NCBI RefSeq assembly: GCF_900162685.1
Contig: NZ_LT727828.1
Span: forward strand, 2,452,588 to 2,516,587
Length of the DNA: 64,000 nt
Reading direction: 5' to 3'
Origin: Terribacillus halophilus
GTDB taxonomy: Bacteria > Bacillota > Bacilli > Bacillales > Amphibacillaceae
Both the position numbers and the translations under genes were made by a program. Below, in pieces: positions 9,025 to 61,980 of the stretch. Numbering within the stretch: position 1 is the stretch's first letter; each line of letters begins with the position of its first letter. The notes beneath the pieces were generated by a model, which was not told the DNA's origin, made no database searches, and worked only from the letters and a program-made list of their open reading frames with translations.

Positions 9025-9133
9025 TCGTAAATCCACCGGATATAAGTGACATTAGTCTATTATTACCAAAAAAATTGTTCTATTAGAACAGTAAGTCTAA
9101 AGGAATCTAAGTACAATTAACTAGAAAAAAATA

Positions 9134-9154
9134 AACCGCACACAAGGTGCAGTT
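9134..9154 (-). terminator. Terminator after trmL
   Basis: On the minus strand AACTGCAC and GTGCGGTT form a stem around a short CTTGT loop, followed by TTTATTTTTTT. The hairpin begins in the trmL stop codon. Confidence 0.7.
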
Positions 9155-9627
9155 CAAGATAGTCCATCAAAGTTTTGTTGTCGAAGAGCTTCATAAATAA
9201 TGATTGCTGCGGTATTAGATAGATTTAGGGATCGAACTTTATCCGTCATATGAATTCGAAGACATTGTTCTTCTTTTCCTGCGAGCAAGTCTTTAGGAAT
9301 ACCAGTCGATTCCCGCCCAAATACAAACAGGATGTCTTGATTCGTATCACTAAAATCATAGTCCGAATAATGTTTCGTACCAAAATTCTCTATATAATAG
9401 TAGGCTCCTTCAGGGAATTGCTCATATAGTTCTTCAATACTATCGTAATATCGGATATTCACATCATGCCAATAATCCAACCCTGATCGTCTTAGCATCT
9501 TGTCATCCGTCGAAAACCCAAGTGGACGAATAAGATGCAAAGTAGTATCGGTAGCGAGACAGGTACGGGCGATATTCCCTGTGTTTGCTGGAATTTCTGG
9601 CTGGTATAGTACGATATGTCTTGGCAT
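9154..9627 (-). CDS. trmL: tRNA (cytidine(34)-2'-O)-methyltransferase TrmL
   Basis: A 157-residue single-domain SPOUT methyltransferase, the usual TrmL length. Family features are HIVLYQPEIPANTGNIARTC at the N-terminus, LIRPLGF near 35, the SAM-binding knot segment LFVFGRESTGIP near 108, and RIHMTDKVRSLNLSNTAAI near the C-terminus. TrmL methylates the wobble ribose of tRNA-Leu (C34/U34) in the cytoplasm. The ATG at 9627 follows AGAGGTG with seven bases between. The gene is monocistronic and ends at its own hairpin. Confidence 0.94.
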   Translation of the reverse strand: MPRHIVLYQPEIPANTGNIARTCLATDTTLHLIRPLGFSTDDKMLRRSGLDYWHDVNIRYYDSIEELYEQFPEGAYYYIENFGTKHYSDYDFSDTNQDILFVFGRESTGIPKDLLAGKEEQCLRIHMTDKVRSLNLSNTAAIIIYEALRQQNFDGLS

Positions 9628-9681
9628 TAACTTTCACCTCTGCTTTTAACTTTCAACCTTACTAGTATAGCACAGCAGAGG

Positions 9682-10533
9682 TCAGACCCCAATCTGGAAA
9701 AATTTATAGACAACATTTTCTGTATATGCCGGGGAATCACGATACGCCCAGTTCCGCATTCTGCTATTGGCTGTGTGCGCATTCACCAATGGCTCTCCTT
9801 GTGGATCCCGAGCCACTACAATTGTATTGTGGTTAAAGTTTCCATCTCCTTCGAAATCATAGCAAATCACATCTCCAGGACGAAGCAATCGTGCGTCTGC
9901 AACTTCTTTTCCTTGCAGCCCTTGTTTAGACCCACTTAAATACCAGCGCAATGCGTTCGCTACTGTGAAACTGTAGCTCCAGCTTTCTCCGTTATACCAC
10001 CAGCCTGAATTTCGATCCGGTTCTCCCCGCATTGGCGCTCCGCCAGCGTGTAAGCATTGTGAAATAAAATTCGTACAATCGACCTCAAACTTTTTGTAAG
10101 CCGGATTATAATCATTCCACCAGCGTTCTGCATATTGTACAGCAGCCCGTCTGTCATAGTTAAATTGCCGATCAAAGTTTTCATCATTGCTTTCATATCC
10201 AACAAGTCCATGGACATGCGGCTGGACAGCCTCATCCTTTTGCTCATGCCGCACAATTTGGCCATTACGCATATAGGCGGTATGCGTATGTACTTCTTCC
10301 TCATGATACGTTCCATGCTGCTTATGGACGAGAAATGTAGCACACAAGCTGTACGTGATTATATCTTCATCTTTGTCATGTTCTTCCCTTAGTATTGTGC
10401 CTTCTCCTTTAATTTGAGCTACTTTTGCACCTTCTTTCGCATGAGCGGCTATGCGTTCAACCAGCCAATTTCCTTCTTTCTGCTCTTCGACCTCCTGCAG
10501 CCAAAAATTCACCAACTGCTCATTCTTCCCCAT
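9682..10533 (-). CDS. Amidase_6 domain protein (putative cell-wall hydrolase)
   Basis: This 283-residue protein starts at the ATG at 10533, directly after a GGAGGG site. The C-terminal half (about 130-283) is a putative amidase domain with YDRRAAVQYAERWWNDYNP, VDCTNFISQCLHAGG (probable nucleophilic Cys), DVICYDFEGDG and NHNTIVVA (probable catalytic His). This is a papain-like/NlpC-like arrangement. No signal peptide is visible, so it may act inside the cell or forespore, or leave by another route. The N-terminal half is a charged cystatin-like region. A 38-codon membrane-protein gene overlaps its start. Confidence 0.8.
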   Translation of the reverse strand: MGKNEQLVNFWLQEVEEQKEGNWLVERIAAHAKEGAKVAQIKGEGTILREEHDKDEDIITYSLCATFLVHKQHGTYHEEEVHTHTAYMRNGQIVRHEQKDEAVQPHVHGLVGYESNDENFDRQFNYDRRAAVQYAERWWNDYNPAYKKFEVDCTNFISQCLHAGGAPMRGEPDRNSGWWYNGESWSYSFTVANALRWYLSGSKQGLQGKEVADARLLRPGDVICYDFEGDGNFNHNTIVVARDPQGEPLVNAHTANSRMRNWAYRDSPAYTENVVYKFFQIGV

Positions 10534-52422: not shown

Positions 52423-53595
52423 TTATGGTTTTATCGTTTCTGTTACTTGTGCTGCAGCAGCTAAAGCTTGCTGCAGGTCTTCCAGCAGATCATTTGCATG
52501 CTCCAATCCGACGGACAAACGAAGCAATCCATCTGTTATGCCTCGTTTCTTCCGCTCTGCTTCCGGCATCGCAGCATGTGACATGGAAGCTGGATACGAT
52601 AGAATCGATTCTACTGCGCCAAGACTTACAGCAAAGATTGGAATTTGCAGCTGTTCTACAAATACCTTTGCATGCTCTCTGCTCGGCAGCACAAAGGATA
52701 ATACTGCACCATTTCCACTGGCTTGCCCTGTATGTATGTCATGTCCCTGATGATTGGGCAAGCCAGGATAATACACATTTTCCACAAGCGAATGTTCAAA
52801 CAGGAAACCTGCAACTCGCTCAGCTGTGTTTGACGCTTGATGTAATCTTGCTCCTAGCGTCTTCATGCCTTGCAGCAGTAAATAGCTATCCTGGGCACCG
52901 AGTATGGCTCCAAAAGTGTTTTGAATAAATGCCAATCGGGAGCCTAGTTCTTCATCTTTTGTAATCGCCAGACCGGCAATGATGTCACTGTGACCAGACA
53001 AAAACTTTGTAGCACTATGAAGCACCACATCTACTCCCAGTGACAAAGGCTGCTGATACAGCGGCGTCAAAAATGTATTGTCCAAAAACGTTAAGCAGTC
53101 CTGCTGTCTGGCTAGCTGAACAATCGCACGGATATCTGTCACTTTTAAACAAGGATTAGAAGGTGTCTCCAGGTAGATTACTTTTGTATTCGGACGTATG
53201 GCTTCTCTTACAGCAGTCAGATCTGTCAAATCAACGAAAGAGTAACTAATCTGGAACTTTGGCAGGATTTCACTTACAAACCGGTATGTTCCCCCGTACA
53301 CATCCTCTGTCACAATGACATGATCCCCTGCAGACAGAAGCATGAAGGCAGAAGATATAGCTGCCATGCCGGATGAAAATGCTAAGGCGCGCGTGCCGCC
53401 TTCCAGCTCGGCTGCTTTTTGTTCCAATGCTTCCCGAGTCGGGTTACCAGAGCGACTGTAATCAAATGGACCAAAGCCGTCAAAGCTTTCCTGATGAAAA
53501 GTAGAAGATAAATAGATTGGCACATTCACCGCACCCGTGCGCTGTTCTCTATGTGTTCCGCGGATACATGTTGTTTCTGTTTGCTGTTTATACAT
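52423..53595 (-). CDS. metC: Cystathionine beta-lyase
   Basis: A 390-residue Cys/Met-metabolism PLP enzyme, the length of B. subtilis MetC. FDYSRSGNPTREALEQKAAE, LEGGTRALAFSSGMAAIS, TEDVYGGTYRF and PLP Lys in VLHSATKFLSGHSD are present. It cleaves cystathionine to homocysteine, pyruvate and ammonia. It lies 11 bp after metI and overlaps yxjG, so all three are one operon. Confidence 0.94.
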   Translation of the reverse strand: MYKQQTETTCIRGTHREQRTGAVNVPIYLSSTFHQESFDGFGPFDYSRSGNPTREALEQKAAELEGGTRALAFSSGMAAISSAFMLLSAGDHVIVTEDVYGGTYRFVSEILPKFQISYSFVDLTDLTAVREAIRPNTKVIYLETPSNPCLKVTDIRAIVQLARQQDCLTFLDNTFLTPLYQQPLSLGVDVVLHSATKFLSGHSDIIAGLAITKDEELGSRLAFIQNTFGAILGAQDSYLLLQGMKTLGARLHQASNTAERVAGFLFEHSLVENVYYPGLPNHQGHDIHTGQASGNGAVLSFVLPSREHAKVFVEQLQIPIFAVSLGAVESILSYPASMSHAAMPEAERKKRGITDGLLRLSVGLEHANDLLEDLQQALAAAAQVTETIKP

Positions 53596-54764: not shown

Positions 54765-54784
54765 AGTAATAACCGAATCAGCTT

Positions 54785-54883
54785 CTTATCTTTAAGGCAG
54801 ATACCTTTTGGATTTAGCACCGTGTCTCTTCGACTGGTTGCTGAGACATCACAGGGCCAATTCCCTCCGTCTCTCTTGATAAG
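54785..54883 (-). ncRNA. SAM-I (S-box) riboswitch controlling metI-metC-yxjG
   Basis: On the minus strand P1 CTTATC pairs with GATAAG (plus 54785-54790). Core elements follow in order: AAGAGAGACGGAGGGA, TTGGCCC, CTCAGCAACC, GGTGCTAAATCC. The aptamer is followed by a terminator. When SAM binds, transcription of the methionine operon should stop. Promoter: TTGACT, 16 bases, TAGAAT (plus 54914-54941). Confidence 0.96.
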
Positions 54884-54913
54884 AAAAAATATTTAATTTT
54901 TAATATTAAAGTT

Positions 54914-55033: not shown

Positions 55034-55062
55034 TTGACAATCTATCGTTTTCCGTCTATTCT
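55034..55062 (+). promoter_or_regulatory. Sigma-A promoter of the amidohydrolase/ABC operon
   Basis: Perfect TTGACA at 55034-55039 and TATTCT at 55057-55062 with a 17-base spacer, just upstream of the second S-box. Confidence 0.88.
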
Positions 55063-55080
55063 GTTTCTTACAAATGATAT

Positions 55081-55189
55081 TTCTTATCAAGATTGGTGGA
55101 GGGAATGGCCCGTCGAAACCAAAGCAGCAGGCTGTAAACACCAGCACTGTGCTAATTCCAAGTGTGACATACACTGAAGATAAGAAGAG
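55081..55189 (+). ncRNA. SAM-I (S-box) riboswitch controlling the amidohydrolase/ABC operon
   Basis: P1 TTCTTATC (55081-55088) pairs with GATAAGAA (55179-55186). Inside are TTGGTGGAGGGAATGGCCC, GAAACCAAAGCAGC, the core GTGCTAATTCCA and a P4 hairpin AGTGT/ACACT. The AAC of the usual GCAAC joining region is changed to AGC, and its P3 partner reads CTGTGC, so pairing is kept. AAGAAGAG (55182-55189) can instead pair with CTCTTCTT (55212-55219), the antiterminator. This is a complete SAM-off switch. Confidence 0.93.
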
Positions 55190-55210
55190 CGGAATTGCGG
55201 CATCATCCCC

Positions 55211-55238
55211 CCTCTTCTTTCTGAAGAGGATTTTTTTT
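55211..55238 (+). terminator. Riboswitch expression-platform terminator
   Basis: CCTCTTC pairs with GAAGAGG around TTTCT, followed by A and eight T residues. Its 5' arm overlaps the antiterminator sequence. Confidence 0.92.
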
Positions 55239-55295
55239 GCGAACAATCCCGATTATTTTGATTGGATATATCAAGATTTTTATAGGAGGTAAAGA

Positions 55296-56492
55296 ATGGA
55301 AATGCACACAAAAAACCTAGCTGATGTACATATCGACTTAGAAAACGATTTTACGGAGGTTGTTGAATGGCGACGATACCTCCATCAGCATCCGGAATTA
55401 AGTTTTCAAGAAACCGAAACCGCCCGGTTTATTGCTGACAAACTCCGAAGTTTCGGCTACGAAGAAATAAAGACAAATGTTGGCGGATATGGAATTGTTG
55501 CCACGCTGACAGGAAAAACAGAGGGACCGACAATCGCCTTGCGAGCAGATTTTGATGCGCTGCCGATTGAAGACGAAAAAGATGTCCCTTATCGTTCCAA
55601 AGCAAACGGTGTTATGCATGCTTGCGGACATGATGGACATACCGCTGCGCTCCTCGGAACCGCTAAAGCACTTATTAATCAAAGAAACAGCCTTAAGGGG
55701 AAAGTAGTATTTTTATTCCAGCCAGCTGAAGAAGTGCCGCCAGGCGGGGCAAAAGCGATGATTGAAGATGGTGCACTTGAAGGTGTCGACTATGTGTATG
55801 GCGCTCACCTCAATTCTGCTTCCCCGGTAGGAAAAGTTAATGTTGGCGAAGGCTTCAAGATGGCTGCTGTCGATAAATTTGCAATTACCATTCAAGGAAA
55901 AGGCGGTCATGGCGCAGCGCCACAAGAAACGGTTGATCCCATCGTCATTGGCAGTGATATCGTCAGCGCCCTACAAAAAATTGTCAGCCGACGAGTCAGC
56001 CCGCTGGAATCTGCAGTCGTCACACTTGGGGTTTTCCAGTCCGGTCAAGCGTTCAACGTAATCCCAGATACCGCAACAATTGAGGGTACTGTCCGTACAT
56101 TCAATGCAGCTATCCGTCAGCAAGTACAAGAGCAAATTGAAGCAATTGTTGCCGGAATTACGAGCGGTTTTGGCGCAACGTATTCTATTGATTACTTGAA
56201 TGGTTATCCTGCTCTTTACAACCACCCAGAAGAAACCGCTTTGCTAAAGCAGCTATTTACGGAAGAGTTCGGGGAGGAACAAGTTATACCGTTTGAAACA
56301 GGCATGGGTGCAGAGGATTTTGCTTATTACTTACAAGAAAAGCCGGGCAGCTTTTTCAAAGTTGGCTCTCGCAATGAAGATACTAGCACGCACTTCCCGC
56401 ATCATCATCCGAAGTTTGACATTGATGAACGCGCACTGCTCATTACAGAAAAGGCATTTACAAAAATTGTATTCTCGTTATTAGGAAGCTAA
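55296..56492 (+). CDS. M20-family metal-dependent amidohydrolase
   Basis: A 398-residue M20D peptidase (hippurate/N-acyl-amino-acid hydrolase type). Metal and catalytic motifs are HACGHDGHTA near residue 108, PAEEVPPGGA near 144, GGHGAAPQETVDP in the dimerisation lid domain, TGMGAEDFAYYL, and a C-terminal HHHPKFDIDE supplying the last His. It removes acyl groups from amino acids, or cleaves dipeptides, in the cytoplasm. The start is an ATG after AGGAGG. It leads an operon with an oligopeptide-type importer and an S-box, so an N-acyl or peptidyl methionine-type substrate is likely; this is inference. Confidence 0.92.
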   Translation: MEMHTKNLADVHIDLENDFTEVVEWRRYLHQHPELSFQETETARFIADKLRSFGYEEIKTNVGGYGIVATLTGKTEGPTIALRADFDALPIEDEKDVPYRSKANGVMHACGHDGHTAALLGTAKALINQRNSLKGKVVFLFQPAEEVPPGGAKAMIEDGALEGVDYVYGAHLNSASPVGKVNVGEGFKMAAVDKFAITIQGKGGHGAAPQETVDPIVIGSDIVSALQKIVSRRVSPLESAVVTLGVFQSGQAFNVIPDTATIEGTVRTFNAAIRQQVQEQIEAIVAGITSGFGATYSIDYLNGYPALYNHPEETALLKQLFTEEFGEEQVIPFETGMGAEDFAYYLQEKPGSFFKVGSRNEDTSTHFPHHHPKFDIDERALLITEKAFTKIVFSLLGS

Positions 56493-56504
56493 GGAGGAAT
56501 TAAC

Positions 56505-58085
56505 TTGAAGAAACTCGCACTTATTTTATTCGGATTATTAGGAGCCATCGCGCTGTTCGGCTGCTCTAACAATTCCAGCAGCAGTTCGGCTGGCGGCAGC
56601 GGGGAACCTGTCGAAGGCGGCGACTTAAACGTTGCCATGGGCTCAGAACCTGACACTTTGGACTGGATGTATTCTGGTGAAAGTGCTACACGGAAAATCG
56701 GCTGGCATATATATGAAGGATTATTCGCCTTAGATAAAGAATATCAGGCTCGTCCGTTGCTAGCGGAAGATTATACAGTAAGTGATGACAAGAAAACCTA
56801 CACGATTACACTTCGTGATGGCCTCAAGTTCCATAACGGCCAAGATGTTACTGCAAATGACGCGAAAGCATCACTTGATCGCTGGACAAAGGTATCTTCT
56901 GTGGGAAAAATTGCGTCTAGCCACATCAATTCTATTGAAGCAACAGACGATAAAACGTTAGTTATTACGCTAAAAGACGTGTATACCTCTTTACTGACAG
57001 ACCTAGCCGCACCAAAAGCTTCAGCAATTATCATCCCATCTGATGTTGCCGAAGCAGCAGGTGAGCAGCCGCTGACAAATGAACAATTTATAGGTACTGG
57101 ACCATTCCAATTCGAGTCTTGGAAAAGCGGAAATGAGATTGTTCTCTCGAAGTTTGCAGACTACAAATCACGTGACGAAGAAGATTGGGGCGGTTTAACA
57201 GGTAAGAAAACAGCTTACCTGGATTCCATCCACTTCAAAGTAGTGAAAGATCCGCAAGTTATGCTCAATGGTTTGAAAACAGATTTGTATGATTATGTGC
57301 AATCCATCCCGCTTGATTTGTATGAAGTAGTCACTTCTACACCGAATGTGGAAGCTGTTACATCAAGTAATGGTTATTCCGTCATCACACCGGATAAGTC
57401 AGAAGCACCATTTGATGACTTAAAAGTCCGTCAAGCGCTCCACGCTGCTTTAGATAAAGAAGCAATGGCAAAAGCAACTTACGGGAACGATGATTTTTAT
57501 GAACTGGACGGTGCATTATTCACACCAGATCAAACCGCACTTTATTCAGATGAAAATATTGATAACTTTGCTGCCTTCGACGAAGAAGAAGCGAAAAAAC
57601 TGCTAGAAGAAAGCTCCTATGACGGCCAGCCAGTGAAGATTATCTTCTCTAATGACAACGCAGATTATGCGAAGATTGCTGAGATTGCTGAGCAACAGCT
57701 GGAAGCCGTTGGATTTACGGTAGAGCTGGAATCGTATGAATGGGCAACGTACTTGGAAAAATGGGGCGATGCGAAGAATTGGGATATGGTCGTTGTTGGC
57801 TGGTCGCCATTCTTCTCCCCGAACCAAGCTGGTATGGTAAGCCGCGAAAACAACAGCAGCGGCTGGTATCACAGTGATCGCTGGCAAGAACTTCTCGCAC
57901 AGTGGGGAACAGCAGATGAGGGTGAGCAGCAGCAGATTTTAGCTGAGCTCAACAAAACGCTTTATGAAGAACTTCCGTTTGAAAAAGTGACGAATATTTC
58001 TGCTTTGGACGCCCGCACGACAGATTTGCAGGGCTTTGACGAGTGGTATGGGCCTCGCTTCTGGAATACTTGGAAAACGAAGTAA
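56505..58085 (+). CDS. Peptide-type ABC transporter substrate-binding lipoprotein
   Basis: A 526-residue family 5 (DppA/OppA-like) binding protein with TTG start after AAGGAGG. The lipoprotein signal ends in LFGC (Cys20), followed by a Ser-rich linker. GSEPDTLDWMYSGESATRKI, YTITLRDGLKFHNGQDVTAN, GTGPFQFESWKSGNEIVLSK and DLKVRQALHAALDKEAMAKA are family landmarks. It captures the ligand outside the membrane for the two permeases that follow. It lies 12 bp after the amidohydrolase gene. A strong hairpin follows it, which may raise its level relative to the permeases. Confidence 0.93.
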   Translation: MKKLALILFGLLGAIALFGCSNNSSSSSAGGSGEPVEGGDLNVAMGSEPDTLDWMYSGESATRKIGWHIYEGLFALDKEYQARPLLAEDYTVSDDKKTYTITLRDGLKFHNGQDVTANDAKASLDRWTKVSSVGKIASSHINSIEATDDKTLVITLKDVYTSLLTDLAAPKASAIIIPSDVAEAAGEQPLTNEQFIGTGPFQFESWKSGNEIVLSKFADYKSRDEEDWGGLTGKKTAYLDSIHFKVVKDPQVMLNGLKTDLYDYVQSIPLDLYEVVTSTPNVEAVTSSNGYSVITPDKSEAPFDDLKVRQALHAALDKEAMAKATYGNDDFYELDGALFTPDQTALYSDENIDNFAAFDEEEAKKLLEESSYDGQPVKIIFSNDNADYAKIAEIAEQQLEAVGFTVELESYEWATYLEKWGDAKNWDMVVVGWSPFFSPNQAGMVSRENNSSGWYHSDRWQELLAQWGTADEGEQQQILAELNKTLYEELPFEKVTNISALDARTTDLQGFDEWYGPRFWNTWKTK

Positions 58086-58092
58086 TGCCTGC

Positions 58093-58127
58093 AGAGAATC
58101 GCCTGCGTTACATGCAGGCGATTCTCT
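58093..58127 (+). terminator. Intercistronic hairpin after the binding-protein gene
   Basis: AGAGAATCGCCTGC pairs with GCAGGCGATTCTCT (14 bp) around seven bases, followed by TCTATTTTTATTA. It probably acts as a partial terminator or mRNA stabiliser inside the operon. Confidence 0.75.
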
Positions 58128-58156
58128 TCTATTTTTATTAAAAGGAGTGTGGAAGC

Positions 58157-59104
58157 GTGCTCGGTTATACGATTCGCAGATGCTTATCTGTTATTCCGGT
58201 TATGTTTGTTGTGAGCATTATCGTTTTCTTACTTGTTCACCTAACACCTGGAAATCCTGCACACATTATTCTTGGAGAAGATGCATCCCCTGAAGCGGTA
58301 GCACAACTTGAAGAGCAGCTCGGGTTAAATGATCCATGGTATATTCAATTTTTTGATTGGCTGAAACAAGTCGTTACAGGTGATCTCGGTACGAGTGTCT
58401 TTTCTGCACAGCCGGTAACGGAATTGATCTTCTCCAATTTTGGTCCAACTTTCAGCTTGATGATCTTGTCACTTCTTTTCATCTTGGTTATCTCCATACC
58501 ATTAGCCATTTTGATCGTTTCTTTACGAAAAACCATTTTAGATCCTTTATTCACATCTGCATCGCTTCTAGGTGTGTCGGTGCCTGAATTTTGGCTAGCT
58601 ATCTTACTTGTACTTGGCCTCGGTGTATCAATTCCGATTTTCCCAGTAGCTGGCTATATGCCAATTGCAGAAGGATTTGGATCCTGGCTTTACCATTTAC
58701 TGCTGCCAGCATTTGTGTTAGCCATACTAGAAATCGGCATCATCGCTCGTATGCTTCGTGACAGCATGCTTGATTCTGTTAACCAGGATTATACGAAGAC
58801 TGCCCGAGCAAAGGGTGTTCGTGAACGCGATGTGTTAATGAAACATGTCTTTGCCAATGCCTTAATCCCAACAACAACTGTACTCGGTGCCACCGTTGCC
58901 GGTTTGCTTGGCGGAACAGTTATTATTGAGACACTCTTCACGATACCCGGAATTGGACAGCTGCTGATCGACTCCATCCATCGCCGCGATTATCCAGTGA
59001 TTCAAGGTGTGGTGTTGTTTATCGCTGCAATCTATGTATTGGTTAACTTAATTGTCGATCTGCTATATGCATTTTTAGATCCAAGAATCCGTTATGACGA
59101 ATAA
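58157..59104 (+). CDS. Peptide-type ABC permease, DppB-like
   Basis: A 315-residue permease with six helices. YTIRRCLSVIPVMFVVSIIV and LVHLTPGNPAHIILGEDASP are the usual N-terminus; the EAA-type coupling loop is in YTKTARAKGVRERDVLMKHV. GGTVIIETLFTIPGIGQLLI and a C-terminal DLLYAFLDPRIRYD are typical. It forms the channel with the next gene product. GTG-type start after AAGGAG. Confidence 0.93.
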   Translation: MLGYTIRRCLSVIPVMFVVSIIVFLLVHLTPGNPAHIILGEDASPEAVAQLEEQLGLNDPWYIQFFDWLKQVVTGDLGTSVFSAQPVTELIFSNFGPTFSLMILSLLFILVISIPLAILIVSLRKTILDPLFTSASLLGVSVPEFWLAILLVLGLGVSIPIFPVAGYMPIAEGFGSWLYHLLLPAFVLAILEIGIIARMLRDSMLDSVNQDYTKTARAKGVRERDVLMKHVFANALIPTTTVLGATVAGLLGGTVIIETLFTIPGIGQLLIDSIHRRDYPVIQGVVLFIAAIYVLVNLIVDLLYAFLDPRIRYDE

Positions 59105-59119
59105 GGAGGTACATAACCG

Positions 59120-59971
59120 ATGATGTCAAAAAAAAGGAATCTAATTGCTTTAGCTATTTTCTTATTAATAGCATTAGGGACAATTACAGCAAACTTATGG
59201 CTGCCACTCTCCCCTACCGCCATTGATGCAGAACAGCGACTGCTGTCACCATCTGCCGCTCACTGGTTTGGTACGGATGATTTTGGACGCGATATCTTTG
59301 CACGGGTTGTCGTCGCTGCCCGCGTTTCACTTGCTGTCGGCGTCATTGTAGCGATTGTCGCTACCGTGGTCGGTACATTGATTGGACTTATATCAGGCTA
59401 TTTCCGTAAAACGGATTTTATCCTCATGCGTATTGTAGATGGATTTCTTGCCTTCCCTGCCCTATTGCTGGCGTTAGCGCTAGTTGCAGCACTTGGCGGA
59501 AGTATTACGAATATCGTCATCGCATTGACTATCGCCTTTTTCCCAGTCATGTCACGTGTAGTCCGTTCAGCCGTATTGCAAATCAATAATGCGCAATATA
59601 TAGAAGCAGCCAAAACGACCGGAACAAATAACTTTGTCATCCTTTTTCGATATGTTTTGCCAAATGTACTTTCACCGATTATTGTGCAAAGTACCTTCAT
59701 CTTTGCTAAAGCAATATTGGCGGAAGCTGCGCTCAGCTTTCTTGGTGTCGGAGTTAATCCTTCCACACCAACATGGGGAAACATGCTGCAAGAGTCGCAA
59801 ATTTATATTACCATTGCGCCTTGGTTTTCAATCTTCCCAGGTGTTGCAATTGTCATTACGGTATTGTCATTGAATATACTCGGTGATGGACTTCGAGACG
59901 CTTTCGATCCACACAGCATGAAGAGAAAAAAGAAAAAACGCAAACCGAAACAAACAGCACCAGCTGCTTAA
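59120..59971 (+). CDS. Peptide-type ABC permease, DppC-like
   Basis: A 283-residue permease. HWFGTDDFGRDIFARVVVAA (the signature of DppC-type subunits), LIGLISGYFRKTDFILMRIV and the coupling loop YIEAAKTTGTNNFVILFRYV are present. ILAEAALSFLGVGVNPSTPT, followed by WGNMLQE, is conserved. The C-terminal tail is very basic (MKRKKKKRKPKQ). The start follows AAGGAGG, 15 bp after the DppB-like gene. Confidence 0.93.
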   Translation: MMSKKRNLIALAIFLLIALGTITANLWLPLSPTAIDAEQRLLSPSAAHWFGTDDFGRDIFARVVVAARVSLAVGVIVAIVATVVGTLIGLISGYFRKTDFILMRIVDGFLAFPALLLALALVAALGGSITNIVIALTIAFFPVMSRVVRSAVLQINNAQYIEAAKTTGTNNFVILFRYVLPNVLSPIIVQSTFIFAKAILAEAALSFLGVGVNPSTPTWGNMLQESQIYITIAPWFSIFPGVAIVITVLSLNILGDGLRDAFDPHSMKRKKKKRKPKQTAPAA

Positions 59972-59983
59972 GGGGGAATTACG

Positions 59984-60982
59984 ATGCTAGAAGTTAATGA
60001 TTTGCATGTACATTTGGAAACACCAGCTGGCCTCGTCAAAGCAGTTGATGGTGTCTCCTTCCGGCTTGAAGCTGGTCAAACAATTGGTATCGTCGGCGAA
60101 TCTGGCAGCGGAAAAAGCGTCCTTGCTCACTCGCTGACTAAGCTAAATCCCGAACCGCCGGCAACCTACCCAAAAGGAGAAATACTTTTCCAAGGGGAAA
60201 ACATTTTAACAATGAACAAACGCCGTCTGCGCAGTATGCGCGGGAATGAGATTGCAATGATCTTTCAAGATCCAATGTCGAGTTTAAACCCTGTTTTCAA
60301 GATTGGAAAACAGCTTATTGAAGCCATTCAAACGCATCAGAAGCTATCTAAAAAAGAAGCTCAGCAAAAAGCAATTGAATTGCTCACAGACGTAGGGATT
60401 CCCGACCCAGAACGCCGGATGCAAAGCTATCCGCATCAGTTTTCCGGCGGGATGCGGCAGCGCGTGCTCATCGCCATTGCATTGGCAGCCAGACCAAAGC
60501 TGCTCATTGCCGATGAGCCGACAACAGCCTTGGATGTAACGATTCAGGCACAGATTATTGAGCTGTTAAAATCCATCCAGCAAAAATACGGAACAGCGAT
60601 CATTATGATTACCCATGACCTTGGCGTGGTAGCCAATCTGGCTGATCGCATCCTCGTCATGTATGCCGGCAAAATTGTTGAATCCGCTAGTACAGCAGAT
60701 ATTTTTTATAAGACGGCGATGCCTTATACGTGGTCTTTGTTACGTTCCATCCCAAGACTTGATGCTGGTGCTTCGGAAAGACTGCTGCACATCGAAGGAC
60801 AGCCGCCAAATCTTATTGACCCGCCACAAGGCTGCAATTTTCATCCGCGCTGTCCATTTGCTAGAGACGCATGCCTCCAAGAAAATCCGCCGCTTGGTGA
60901 ACGCGGCCCGGGACACTTGGCCGCTTGCGTACTCAGCCAGCCGGAATTCGAGAAAGAAAAGAAAGGAGTGCTGCTGTCATGA
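59984..60982 (+). CDS. Peptide-type ABC ATPase, DppD-like
   Basis: A 332-residue ATPase: Walker A GESGSGKSV, Q-loop IFQDPMSSLNPVF, signature FSGGMRQRVLIAIALAARPK, Walker B LLIADEPTTALD and H-loop MITHDL. The C-terminal oligopeptide domain with CNFHPRCPFARDAC carries the Cys cluster that binds an iron-sulfur centre in some homologues. It powers the importer with the DppF-like subunit. It overlaps the next gene by four bases (ATGA). Confidence 0.94.
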   Translation: MLEVNDLHVHLETPAGLVKAVDGVSFRLEAGQTIGIVGESGSGKSVLAHSLTKLNPEPPATYPKGEILFQGENILTMNKRRLRSMRGNEIAMIFQDPMSSLNPVFKIGKQLIEAIQTHQKLSKKEAQQKAIELLTDVGIPDPERRMQSYPHQFSGGMRQRVLIAIALAARPKLLIADEPTTALDVTIQAQIIELLKSIQQKYGTAIIMITHDLGVVANLADRILVMYAGKIVESASTADIFYKTAMPYTWSLLRSIPRLDAGASERLLHIEGQPPNLIDPPQGCNFHPRCPFARDACLQENPPLGERGPGHLAACVLSQPEFEKEKKGVLLS

Positions 60983-61980
60983 CCGCGTTATTGGAAATTA
61001 AAGATTTGCACGTACATTTCCCTATCAAAAATGGCACATTCCAGAAGAAGACAGGCAAAGTGAAAGCGTTGAATGGGATTGATTTGGCCGTAAACAAAGG
61101 AGAAGTATTGGGAATCGTCGGAGAGTCAGGCTGTGGGAAAAGCACTTTAGCCAGAAGCATTGTTGGGTTGCAAAAGCCTACTTCCGGCGACATCCTTTTC
61201 AACGGAGAGGCATATACCGACGCATCCGCCAAGGAAATTTACGAGTTGCGCCGCAATATGCAAATGGTCTTTCAGGATCCCTATACAAGCTTGAATCCGC
61301 GGATGAAAGTGAGCGATAGCATAGCCGCTCCGCTGAAGGCATATAAACAAACGAAGAATCTAGAATCTCGTGTCAAAGAACTGATGGAGCTTGTTGGATT
61401 AAATCCAGATATGCATTATAATCGGCTGCCGCATGAATTTTCAGGTGGTCAGCGCCAGCGCATTGGAATAGCACGTGCTATAGCGCTTGAACCAAAGTTA
61501 ATTGTATGCGATGAACCAGTCAGCGCATTAGATGTTTCCGTTCAAGCTCAAGTAATCAATCTATTTCAGGATTTGCAGAAGAAACTAAATCTGACTTATG
61601 TATTTATCGCGCATGATTTATCAGTCATCAATCACATCGCCGATCGAGTTGCAGTTATGTATCTCGGAAAAGTGATGGAAAAATCTAATCGGGAAACATT
61701 CCAGGCACACGCCCAGCACCCATATACGAATGCACTGCTATCAGCTGTACCATTGCCTGATCCAGACAAGGAACGAACGCGCGAACGGATTGTGCTAAAA
61801 GGCGAGCTTCCTTCCCCAGCCAATCCGCCATCCGGCTGCGTGTTTCATACACGCTGTCCGAAAGCGACAGAATTTTGCAAGACAAATATACCTGTGCCGG
61901 AAGAACGAGGCGTACCCGGACAGGAAGTTGCCTGCTTTTATCCTGTTGGTGAGGAAGAAAAAGTGAGGATTACATTATGA
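60979..61980 (+). CDS. Peptide-type ABC ATPase, DppF-like
   Basis: A 333-residue ATPase from the ATG at 60979, after AAAGGAG. Walker A GESGCGKST, Q-loop VFQDPYTSLNPRM, signature FSGGQRQRIGIARAIALEPK, Walker B LIVCDEPVSALDVS and H-loop IAHDL. The C-terminal region holds VFHTRCPKATEFC. Last gene of the importer operon; a strong terminator follows. Confidence 0.94.
   Translation: MTALLEIKDLHVHFPIKNGTFQKKTGKVKALNGIDLAVNKGEVLGIVGESGCGKSTLARSIVGLQKPTSGDILFNGEAYTDASAKEIYELRRNMQMVFQDPYTSLNPRMKVSDSIAAPLKAYKQTKNLESRVKELMELVGLNPDMHYNRLPHEFSGGQRQRIGIARAIALEPKLIVCDEPVSALDVSVQAQVINLFQDLQKKLNLTYVFIAHDLSVINHIADRVAVMYLGKVMEKSNRETFQAHAQHPYTNALLSAVPLPDPDKERTRERIVLKGELPSPANPPSGCVFHTRCPKATEFCKTNIPVPEERGVPGQEVACFYPVGEEEKVRITL

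Follow-up and report, generated by a model that had tools for sequence, protein, structure and literature searches.

A six-gene operon behind a SAM-I riboswitch (S-box) encodes an M20D-family amidohydrolase and a complete Opp-type ATP-binding cassette (ABC) importer in the 64,000-nucleotide stretch of Terribacillus halophilus DNA analysed here (the window; part of a 3.45 Mb genome, G000, contig C13). Its role, to which we give about even confidence, would be organosulfur scavenging under S-box control, with import and cytoplasmic deacylation of an amine-blocked sulfur amino acid when S-adenosylmethionine (SAM) is low. Sequence comparison establishes the aptamer, the terminator and antiterminator, the gene families, the recurrence of the arrangement and its sulfur-related neighbours. 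Among the named genomes of the collection, the nearest relative is Terribacillus aidingensis (L049), with an M20D of 95% identity.

Leader and genes of the M20D-opp operon

The leader and operon comprise the following features:
55034-55062 (+), sigma-70-type promoter TTGACA-17-TATTCT, 10 of 12 matches
55081-55186 (+), SAM-I (S-box) aptamer of the M20D-opp operon, RF00162 82.4 bits, E value 6.3e-18
55182-55219 (+), antiterminator in which AAGAAGAG (55182-55189) pairs with CTCTTCTT (55212-55219), from folding and a shuffle test
55211-55238 (+), intrinsic terminator, a 7-base-pair stem (55211-55229), then A and eight T, -10.7 kcal/mol
55296-56492 (+), M20D amidohydrolase, 398 amino acids, TIGR01891 411.3 bits (cut-off 153.75), PF01546, PF07687
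56505-58085 (+), oppA-like substrate-binding lipoprotein, 526 amino acids, TTG start as listed, PF00496 263.1 bits
58093-58127 (+), hairpin of 16 base pairs in the oppA-oppB gap, followed by a T-rich stretch, a putative partial terminator or stabiliser of the mRNA, from folding
58157-59104 (+), oppB-like permease, 315 amino acids, PF00528, PF19300, NF045470 323.4 bits (cut-off 350)
59120-59971 (+), oppC-like permease, 283 amino acids, PF00528
59984-60982 (+), oppD-like ATPase, 332 amino acids, PF00005, PF08352
60979-61980 (+), oppF-like ATPase, PF00005, PF08352, NF008453 408.7 bits (cut-off 408)

An earlier note made from the sequence alone had described a promoter, a complete SAM-I aptamer and an antiterminator exclusive with a T-tailed terminator, and each of these was borne out in the window. 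The promoter is kept as TTGACA-17-TATYCT in all ten Terribacillus leaders. The aptamer exceeds the Rfam gathering score (82.4 against 44.4 bits) and matches the whole RF00162 model, positions 1-108. The antiterminator overlaps both the 3' strand of P1 and the terminator stem, which makes the structures mutually exclusive in the window leader, and a complement as long as its own arose in 4 of 1000 shuffles. This shuffle test replaces a version in which G-U pairs were permitted and runs of A/T prevailed; among relatives its outcome was mixed, as set out below. Predicted energies for the full leader were -47.0 kcal/mol for P1 plus terminator and -42.6 kcal/mol for the forced antiterminator, while for a transcript ending at 55219 the balance was even (-37.3 for the OFF form, -37.2 kcal/mol for the antiterminator). 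This implies that SAM would need to act co-transcriptionally. The window has an inverted repeat of its own at the -35 box, which lacks conservation across the genus and was dropped as a candidate element.

All six gene products match their expected families, and the importer has the composition of the Opp/Dpp type, namely one SBP_bac_5 protein, two BPD_transp_1 permeases and two ATPases with ABC_tran and oligo_HPY domains. The M20D catalytic and putative metal-binding motifs HACGHD, QPAEE, AHLNS and HHHPKF stand at positions aligned with 4EWT and YxeP. No acetyltransferase, flavin mononucleotide (FMN) monooxygenase or 2SL lyase was found among the six genes by family searches. The start of oppF is likely the ATG overlapping oppD, as judged from the translation; the open reading frame list instead begins at the TTG at 60925. 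The genes had been described as tightly spaced, which does not hold between oppA and oppB, where a gap of 71 nucleotides contains the hairpin at 58093-58127. A clear stem was predicted in eight of ten folded ortholog gaps, with none in L144 and L200. Hairpins in such positions commonly adjust how much binding protein is made relative to permease, and this one may do the same.

In the scheme that we infer for the SAM response, transport and cleavage, low SAM would lead to read-through of the leader and production of M20D and OppABCDF. The Opp-type importer would take in a sulfur amino acid with a blocked amine, most likely N-acylated, such as N-acyl-methionine or an N-acyl S-alkyl-cysteine, and cytoplasmic M20D would cleave the amide, so that the freed amino acid could enter methionine and SAM synthesis. 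At high concentration, SAM would hold P1, allowing the terminator to form and switching the operon off.

Recurrence of the S-box and a palindrome as possible alternative control

With OppA orthologs defined by an E value of 1e-100 or better, the importer occurs in 28 of 159 genomes of the family, and an S-box lies 5' of the operon in 17 of the 28. These are all ten Terribacillus genomes (by Rfam) and G032, G013, G139, G176, G107, G113 and G036 (by our own model R1; G032 and G013 also by Rfam). Outside the family, 23 of 397 genomes of the order had an M20D at an E value of 1e-145 or better, and among the 17 newly fetched neighbourhoods (L214-L230), five have an S-box directly 5' of the M20D gene, with opp in G301 and G340 and without it in G445, G335 and G503 (f27). 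In G036, the S-box precedes oppA, with no M20D gene within the 13 kb fetched. Importer and hydrolase are each tied to SAM separately, since G036 has opp without M20D and the f27 genomes have M20D without opp. Counting S-boxes before the whole operon, before M20D without opp or before opp without M20D, the association noticed in the window recurs in 10 genera of 4 families.

As controls, a SAM riboswitch was found at none of 15 more distant M20D loci (L034-L048; 50-55% identity), and among 68 named loci (L061-L128) the sole S-box in front of the gene (R1, E value up to 0.1) was at L085, a clade-type gene in pieces; the R1 match at L121 lies downstream of M20D. In a tree of M20D proteins, S-boxes fell on 20 of 44 rows of one clade (support 100/99) and on none of the 31 other rows. 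The tree used 75 of 132 distinct rows (all of those with at least 55.5% identity plus 20 lower ones) with 12 duplicate groups collapsed, and left out L085 and L198, whose M20D reads in pieces. In L198 (G176; 9059-9959), M20D matches in two pieces behind an S-box and each opp gene matches in one piece. At L085 (9787-11198), a contig of Bacillus sonorensis NBRC 101234, an S-box and a Terribacillus-like M20D in two frames occur without opp, 1.4 kb from a gene reading like the VOC protein that adjoins SsuABC elsewhere; this is either a transfer remnant or an assembly matter.

A second candidate control element was found where the S-box is absent. The palindrome CCTAGTTGACAACTAGG covers the -35 box at 13 or more of 17 positions in 13 of 14 opp loci lacking an S-box (those of 11 family genomes plus L219, L220 and L060), the exception being L211 with 12. 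It was also present at three of 11 tested S-box loci (L145, L199, L197), the other eight reaching at most 11, so that the leaders bearing it are L202-L210, L212, L219, L220, L060, L145, L199 and L197. Sixteen other M20D loci matched at most 11 of 17 positions. Because ten of the 11 family opp genomes without an S-box have the palindrome, an S-box, a palindrome or both are present in 27 of the 28 family genomes that have the importer. Only G154 (L211) has neither an S-box nor a clear palindrome at its opp operon; in this genome, a cobalamin riboswitch lies just downstream of oppF (L211:2394-2595, - strand).

Allowing up to one mismatch, the palindrome gave 17 sites in 16 of the 159 genomes, compared with five matches of a backward-read control. 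Ten sites precede M20D-opp and two precede M20D genes whose products are 61-63% identical to that of the window (G119, G125). Four lie inside coding genes, and the remaining one, about 540 nucleotides before a methyltransferase-LuxS gene (G019), is the only exact intergenic palindrome elsewhere in the 159 genomes. No site at this threshold was found in the ten Terribacillus genomes. Sites with two mismatches did no better than the control. For the two extra ones, upstream of an FMN reductase gene (L257, L258), the -35 box faces away, and backward-read controls gave at least as many matches in those 13 genomes (15 altogether), so these sites were rejected as evidence. Our estimate had not depended on them and was therefore unchanged. 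T-boxes and other Rfam elements were rejected as control of the opp operons without S-box, with none directly 5' in the 12 loci scanned (L202-L205, L207, L209-L212, L219, L220 and L060; L206 and L208 were outside the scan). The T-boxes of L209 and of L202, which shares its genome with L058, are some 1.7 kb upstream of the operon, and that of L058 is directly 5' of a gene reading, by eye, like tyrosyl-tRNA synthetase.

The owner of the palindrome may be CymR. PMC2743287 lists yrrT, yxe, ytm and ssu among the Bacillus subtilis operons repressed by CymR. A more specific version of the proposal, which we offer only tentatively, is that of a dedicated scavenger of N-acyl-methionine or N-acyl S-alkyl-cysteine with an importer blind to free amines, whose control would have shifted between a SAM riboswitch and a palindromic operator at the -35 box, with both in some species.

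The ligand and competing explanations

Residues that hold a dipeptide are known for Escherichia coli DppA, in which R383 binds the carboxylate and D436 the amine, and the double change R383D and D436R abolishes binding, as described in PMC12136057. An Arg at the equivalent of this Asp in HbpA2 is said to prevent dipeptide binding (PMC3295651). Our alignment, made in three MAFFT modes, comprised nine OppA orthologs (eight loci), E. coli DppA and OppA, and the five remaining binding proteins of the window genome. In two of the three, the position of DppA D436 and OppA D445 was Phe or Arg in all nine orthologs (Phe in the window OppA, L214 and L217; Arg in the six others), and the Asp was kept in L235 and L236, two of the other binding proteins. 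OppA therefore probably does not bind ordinary peptides by their amine, and plain methionine peptides are disfavoured. An AlphaFold model of OppA built from eight sequences was not used (mean per-residue confidence, pLDDT, 40.6; template-modelling score, pTM, 0.34).

M20D enzymes hydrolyse N-acyl amino acids. The related YxeP deacetylates N-acetylcysteine and frees cysteine (PMC9706529). This chemistry, together with the absent Asp, suggests that the ligand would be an amine-blocked, probably N-acylated, sulfur amino acid.

The neighbours of related M20D genes also point to sulfur. In the wider M20D clade (52 tree rows), members without this opp set include that of Neobacillus paridis (L056), where the M20D gene comes immediately after those of a NIL-domain ATPase resembling MetN, a MetI-like permease and an NlpA-type lipoprotein, a MetNIQ-like set that passes Pfam and misses the NCBIfam MetNIQ cut-offs. 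In G034, G043, G312 and G256 (L146, L147, L224, L228), the genes after M20D encode a VOC protein and SsuABC-like proteins, and the SsuA family match in L146 reaches 192.3 bits (cut-off 163.5). G348 and G373 carry, near M20D and on the same strand, genes for a cysteine synthase-like protein and a cystathionine gamma-lyase (605.2 against a cut-off of 594 for the lyase in L230, G348). Because wider-clade M20D genes adjoin MetNIQ, SsuABC-type or cysteine-synthesis genes, a sulfur role of the M20D-opp system is well supported. The earlier note had proposed SAM-controlled import and cleavage of a methionine-related conjugate. Recurrence and neighbours favour a sulfur- or methionine-related conjugate, the binding protein speaks against the methionine peptides included in that proposal, and the evidence does not narrow the ligand to methionine as opposed to a wider range of sulfur amino acids.

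Several observations weigh against import and deacylation of such a compound under SAM control. No S-box precedes the importer in 11 of the 28 family genomes that carry it (nine of the 11 also by Rfam). The full leader without SAM is predicted to be 4.4 kcal/mol more stable as the OFF form, so the ON state must be kinetic. Among 15 leaders, L144a, L198 and L201 gave no simple terminator, and only eight of the 12 testable leaders beat shuffles at 5% (at most 40 per 1000); the antiterminator was no better than shuffles in L144b (674 per 1000), L197 (900), L214 (156) and L217 (148). The third MAFFT mode gives a gap at the Asp column in the nine orthologs, and L232 and L233, other binding proteins of the same genome, also lack the Asp; a missing Asp thus does not prove that the ligand is something other than a peptide. 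In L229 and L230, M20D is separated from the cysteine genes by a gene on the opposite strand. Clade loci with unrelated neighbours or a different Opp set are L053, L054, L055, L057, L213, L215, L216, L218 and L225-L227, and no sulfur neighbour was found at L053, L054, L057, L218, L225, L226 and L227. Finally, the SsuABC, MetNIQ and mccAB-like contexts do not converge on one compound.

Import of methionine-containing peptides by a true Opp/Dpp transporter, with M20D cutting them as a carboxypeptidase or dipeptidase, is a rather unlikely alternative. The importer resembles DppABCDF and OppABCDF in having five subunits of the same domain families, oligo_HPY ATPases included, and oppF barely passes the dipeptide-transporter ATPase subfamily NF008453 (408.7 against 408). 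Its binding protein differs from theirs in lacking the amine-binding Asp and in falling under every NCBIfam cut-off shown, including those of the peptide-binder equivalogs, from which it is far removed (GsiB best, 146 against 594; DppA 72.3 against 1005; OppA 84.4 against 947). Similarly, M20D scores 411.2 bits against the carboxypeptidase CpsA (NF040868) but misses its equivalog cut-off of 500.

The window genome holds 18 S-box aptamers. By family search, this regulon includes an S-methylmethionine permease with homocysteine methyltransferase, an SsuA-family importer behind a metY-like gene, metI and, below family cut-off, a MetNPQ-like set; metK, hom, metA, metY and a second MetNPQ-like set were named by eye. 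Six of the 18 S-boxes (L129, L131, L133, L137, L139, L140) precede LLM flavin or DszC/SfnB-like oxygenase operons, with four NtaA/DmoA-family monooxygenases over cut-off and two SfnG-/DszC-like ones below it. By their sequence families, these operons appear to form a wide organosulfur arm of the regulon. One of them, L139 (G000:C13:2526000-2536500), is another Opp-type operon of the window genome under an S-box, encoding an NtaA/DmoA-family monooxygenase, an SBP_bac_5 protein, two permeases (by eye) and a fused OppD-OppF-like ATPase. Two of the genome's six SBP_bac_5 binding proteins lie behind S-boxes, namely the operon's OppA and L234, which follows a regulon monooxygenase.

The oxygenase operons, including the one with the second Opp importer, are consistent with a wider organosulfur route in which the operon would handle, in place of a blocked sulfur amino acid, another sulfur compound bearing an amide, for example an N-acyl sulfonate, to be oxidised further by S-box-controlled monooxygenases encoded elsewhere. 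Wider-clade M20D genes beside SsuABC in four genomes argue in the same direction. However, there is no oxygenase among the operon genes, and the MetNIQ-like and cystathionine gamma-lyase neighbours indicate amino acids, which leaves this route improbable.

Upstream of the operon lies a divergent metI-metC pair with its own S-box, which the earlier note's account did not include:
54783-54885 (-), second SAM-I aptamer, 5' of metI-metC, RF00162 88.3 bits
53607-54731 (-), metI, methionine biosynthesis PLP-dependent protein, NF006095 629.9 bits (cut-off 585)
52423-53595 (-), metC-like gene 3' of metI, an open reading frame named from position and similarity

The metC-like gene also adjoins metI in L049-L052 and L144. 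The two window S-boxes are divergent and 195 nucleotides apart, as would be expected if the operon had gained its S-box as a passenger, by duplication of the metI leader, and were itself unrelated to methionine. We consider this very unlikely, as an S-box precedes the operon without metI in the fetched flank at L145, L197, L200, L214 and L217, and G032 (L144), which has tandem oppA copies, carries S-boxes before M20D and, inside the operon, before the second oppA, with a third on divergent metI-metC. Import of nickel, cobalt or a metallophore by a Nik/Cnt-like member of the Opp family is scarcely credible, for although the best match of OppB is Opp2B, described as a nickel permease, that of OppC in second place is Opp2C, and PMC12452182 reads M20D with metNIQ as metal transport, all listed nickel/Cnt equivalog cut-offs are missed (binding protein 120.3 against 393; Opp2B 323.4 against 350), and neither the dedicated amidohydrolase nor the sulfur neighbours suit such a role.

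Relation to known systems and further observations

M20D genes in methionine-importer operons, some of them under SAM riboswitches, are already known, and the Opp-type importer is the new element. The name hmrB reportedly goes back to work by Rodionov in 2004. The metQ-hmrB-metNP operon of Streptococcus pneumoniae, as described in PMC5359408, places a putative N-acyl-amino-acid amidohydrolase (M20) in a Met-repressed importer operon that is turned on when methionine is scarce. The window operon likewise holds an M20-family amidohydrolase in an importer operon; it differs in having an Opp-type importer and an S-box, where the pneumococcal one has a MetNIQ-type importer activated by the transcription factor CmhR (PMC5359408). 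In Bacillota, metN-metI-metQ operons with amhX (COG1473) occur under tandem SAM riboswitches or T-boxes, and a COG1473 gene is found in nearly a third of the metNIQ operons counted in PMC12452182. These operons share with the window operon an M20D-family gene and an ABC importer under a SAM riboswitch; the window operon differs in its importer and in having a single S-box, and PMC12452182 reads the set as metal transport. Judged by its S-box and genes, the window operon would thus belong with HmrB and AmhX as an M20D in an importer operon under methionine/SAM control, although its importer is of the Opp type and not MetNIQ; among clade members, L056 has the MetNIQ-like set. The earlier note did not count the gene set among the standard S-box regulon members; given the M20D-type genes already described in such operons (PMC5359408, PMC12452182), it is less unusual than the note supposed.

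The B. subtilis yxe (scm) operon YxeKLMNOPQ also pairs an importer with an M20-type deacetylase, which releases a sulfur amino acid by removing its N-acetyl group (PMC9706529). Unlike yxe, which is listed as CymR-repressed (PMC2743287), the window operon has no acetyltransferase or monooxygenase. In Clostridioides difficile, a lysine riboswitch precedes an amino acid antiporter gene with an M20D gene behind it (PMC11477304), which makes M20D with an amino-acid-linked riboswitch a repeated theme. Our literature searches showed no publication that describes an S-box together with M20D and an importer of the Opp type; an earlier listing in regulon tables is possible.

Many binding proteins of the Opp/Dpp family have no known ligand. 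In this case, the SAM riboswitch and the common palindrome tie one orthologous importer to sulfur metabolism, with a short, testable ligand list. If N-acyl-methionine were the ligand, this would explain the M20D genes in methionine-importer operons, a pattern for which PMC5359408 gives the annotation putative N-acyl-amino-acid amidohydrolase and which PMC12452182 interprets as metal transport.

A family of proteins of about 140 amino acids (L145:3675-4103, L222:7665-8081 and similar) is encoded beside oppF or M20D in many relatives. Two members tried had no Pfam or NCBIfam match, and no Foldseek match was found at an E value of 0.001 or below with a poor model (pLDDT 64.2). The gene is missing at the window locus, and a paralog with 34% identity is encoded elsewhere in the same genome.

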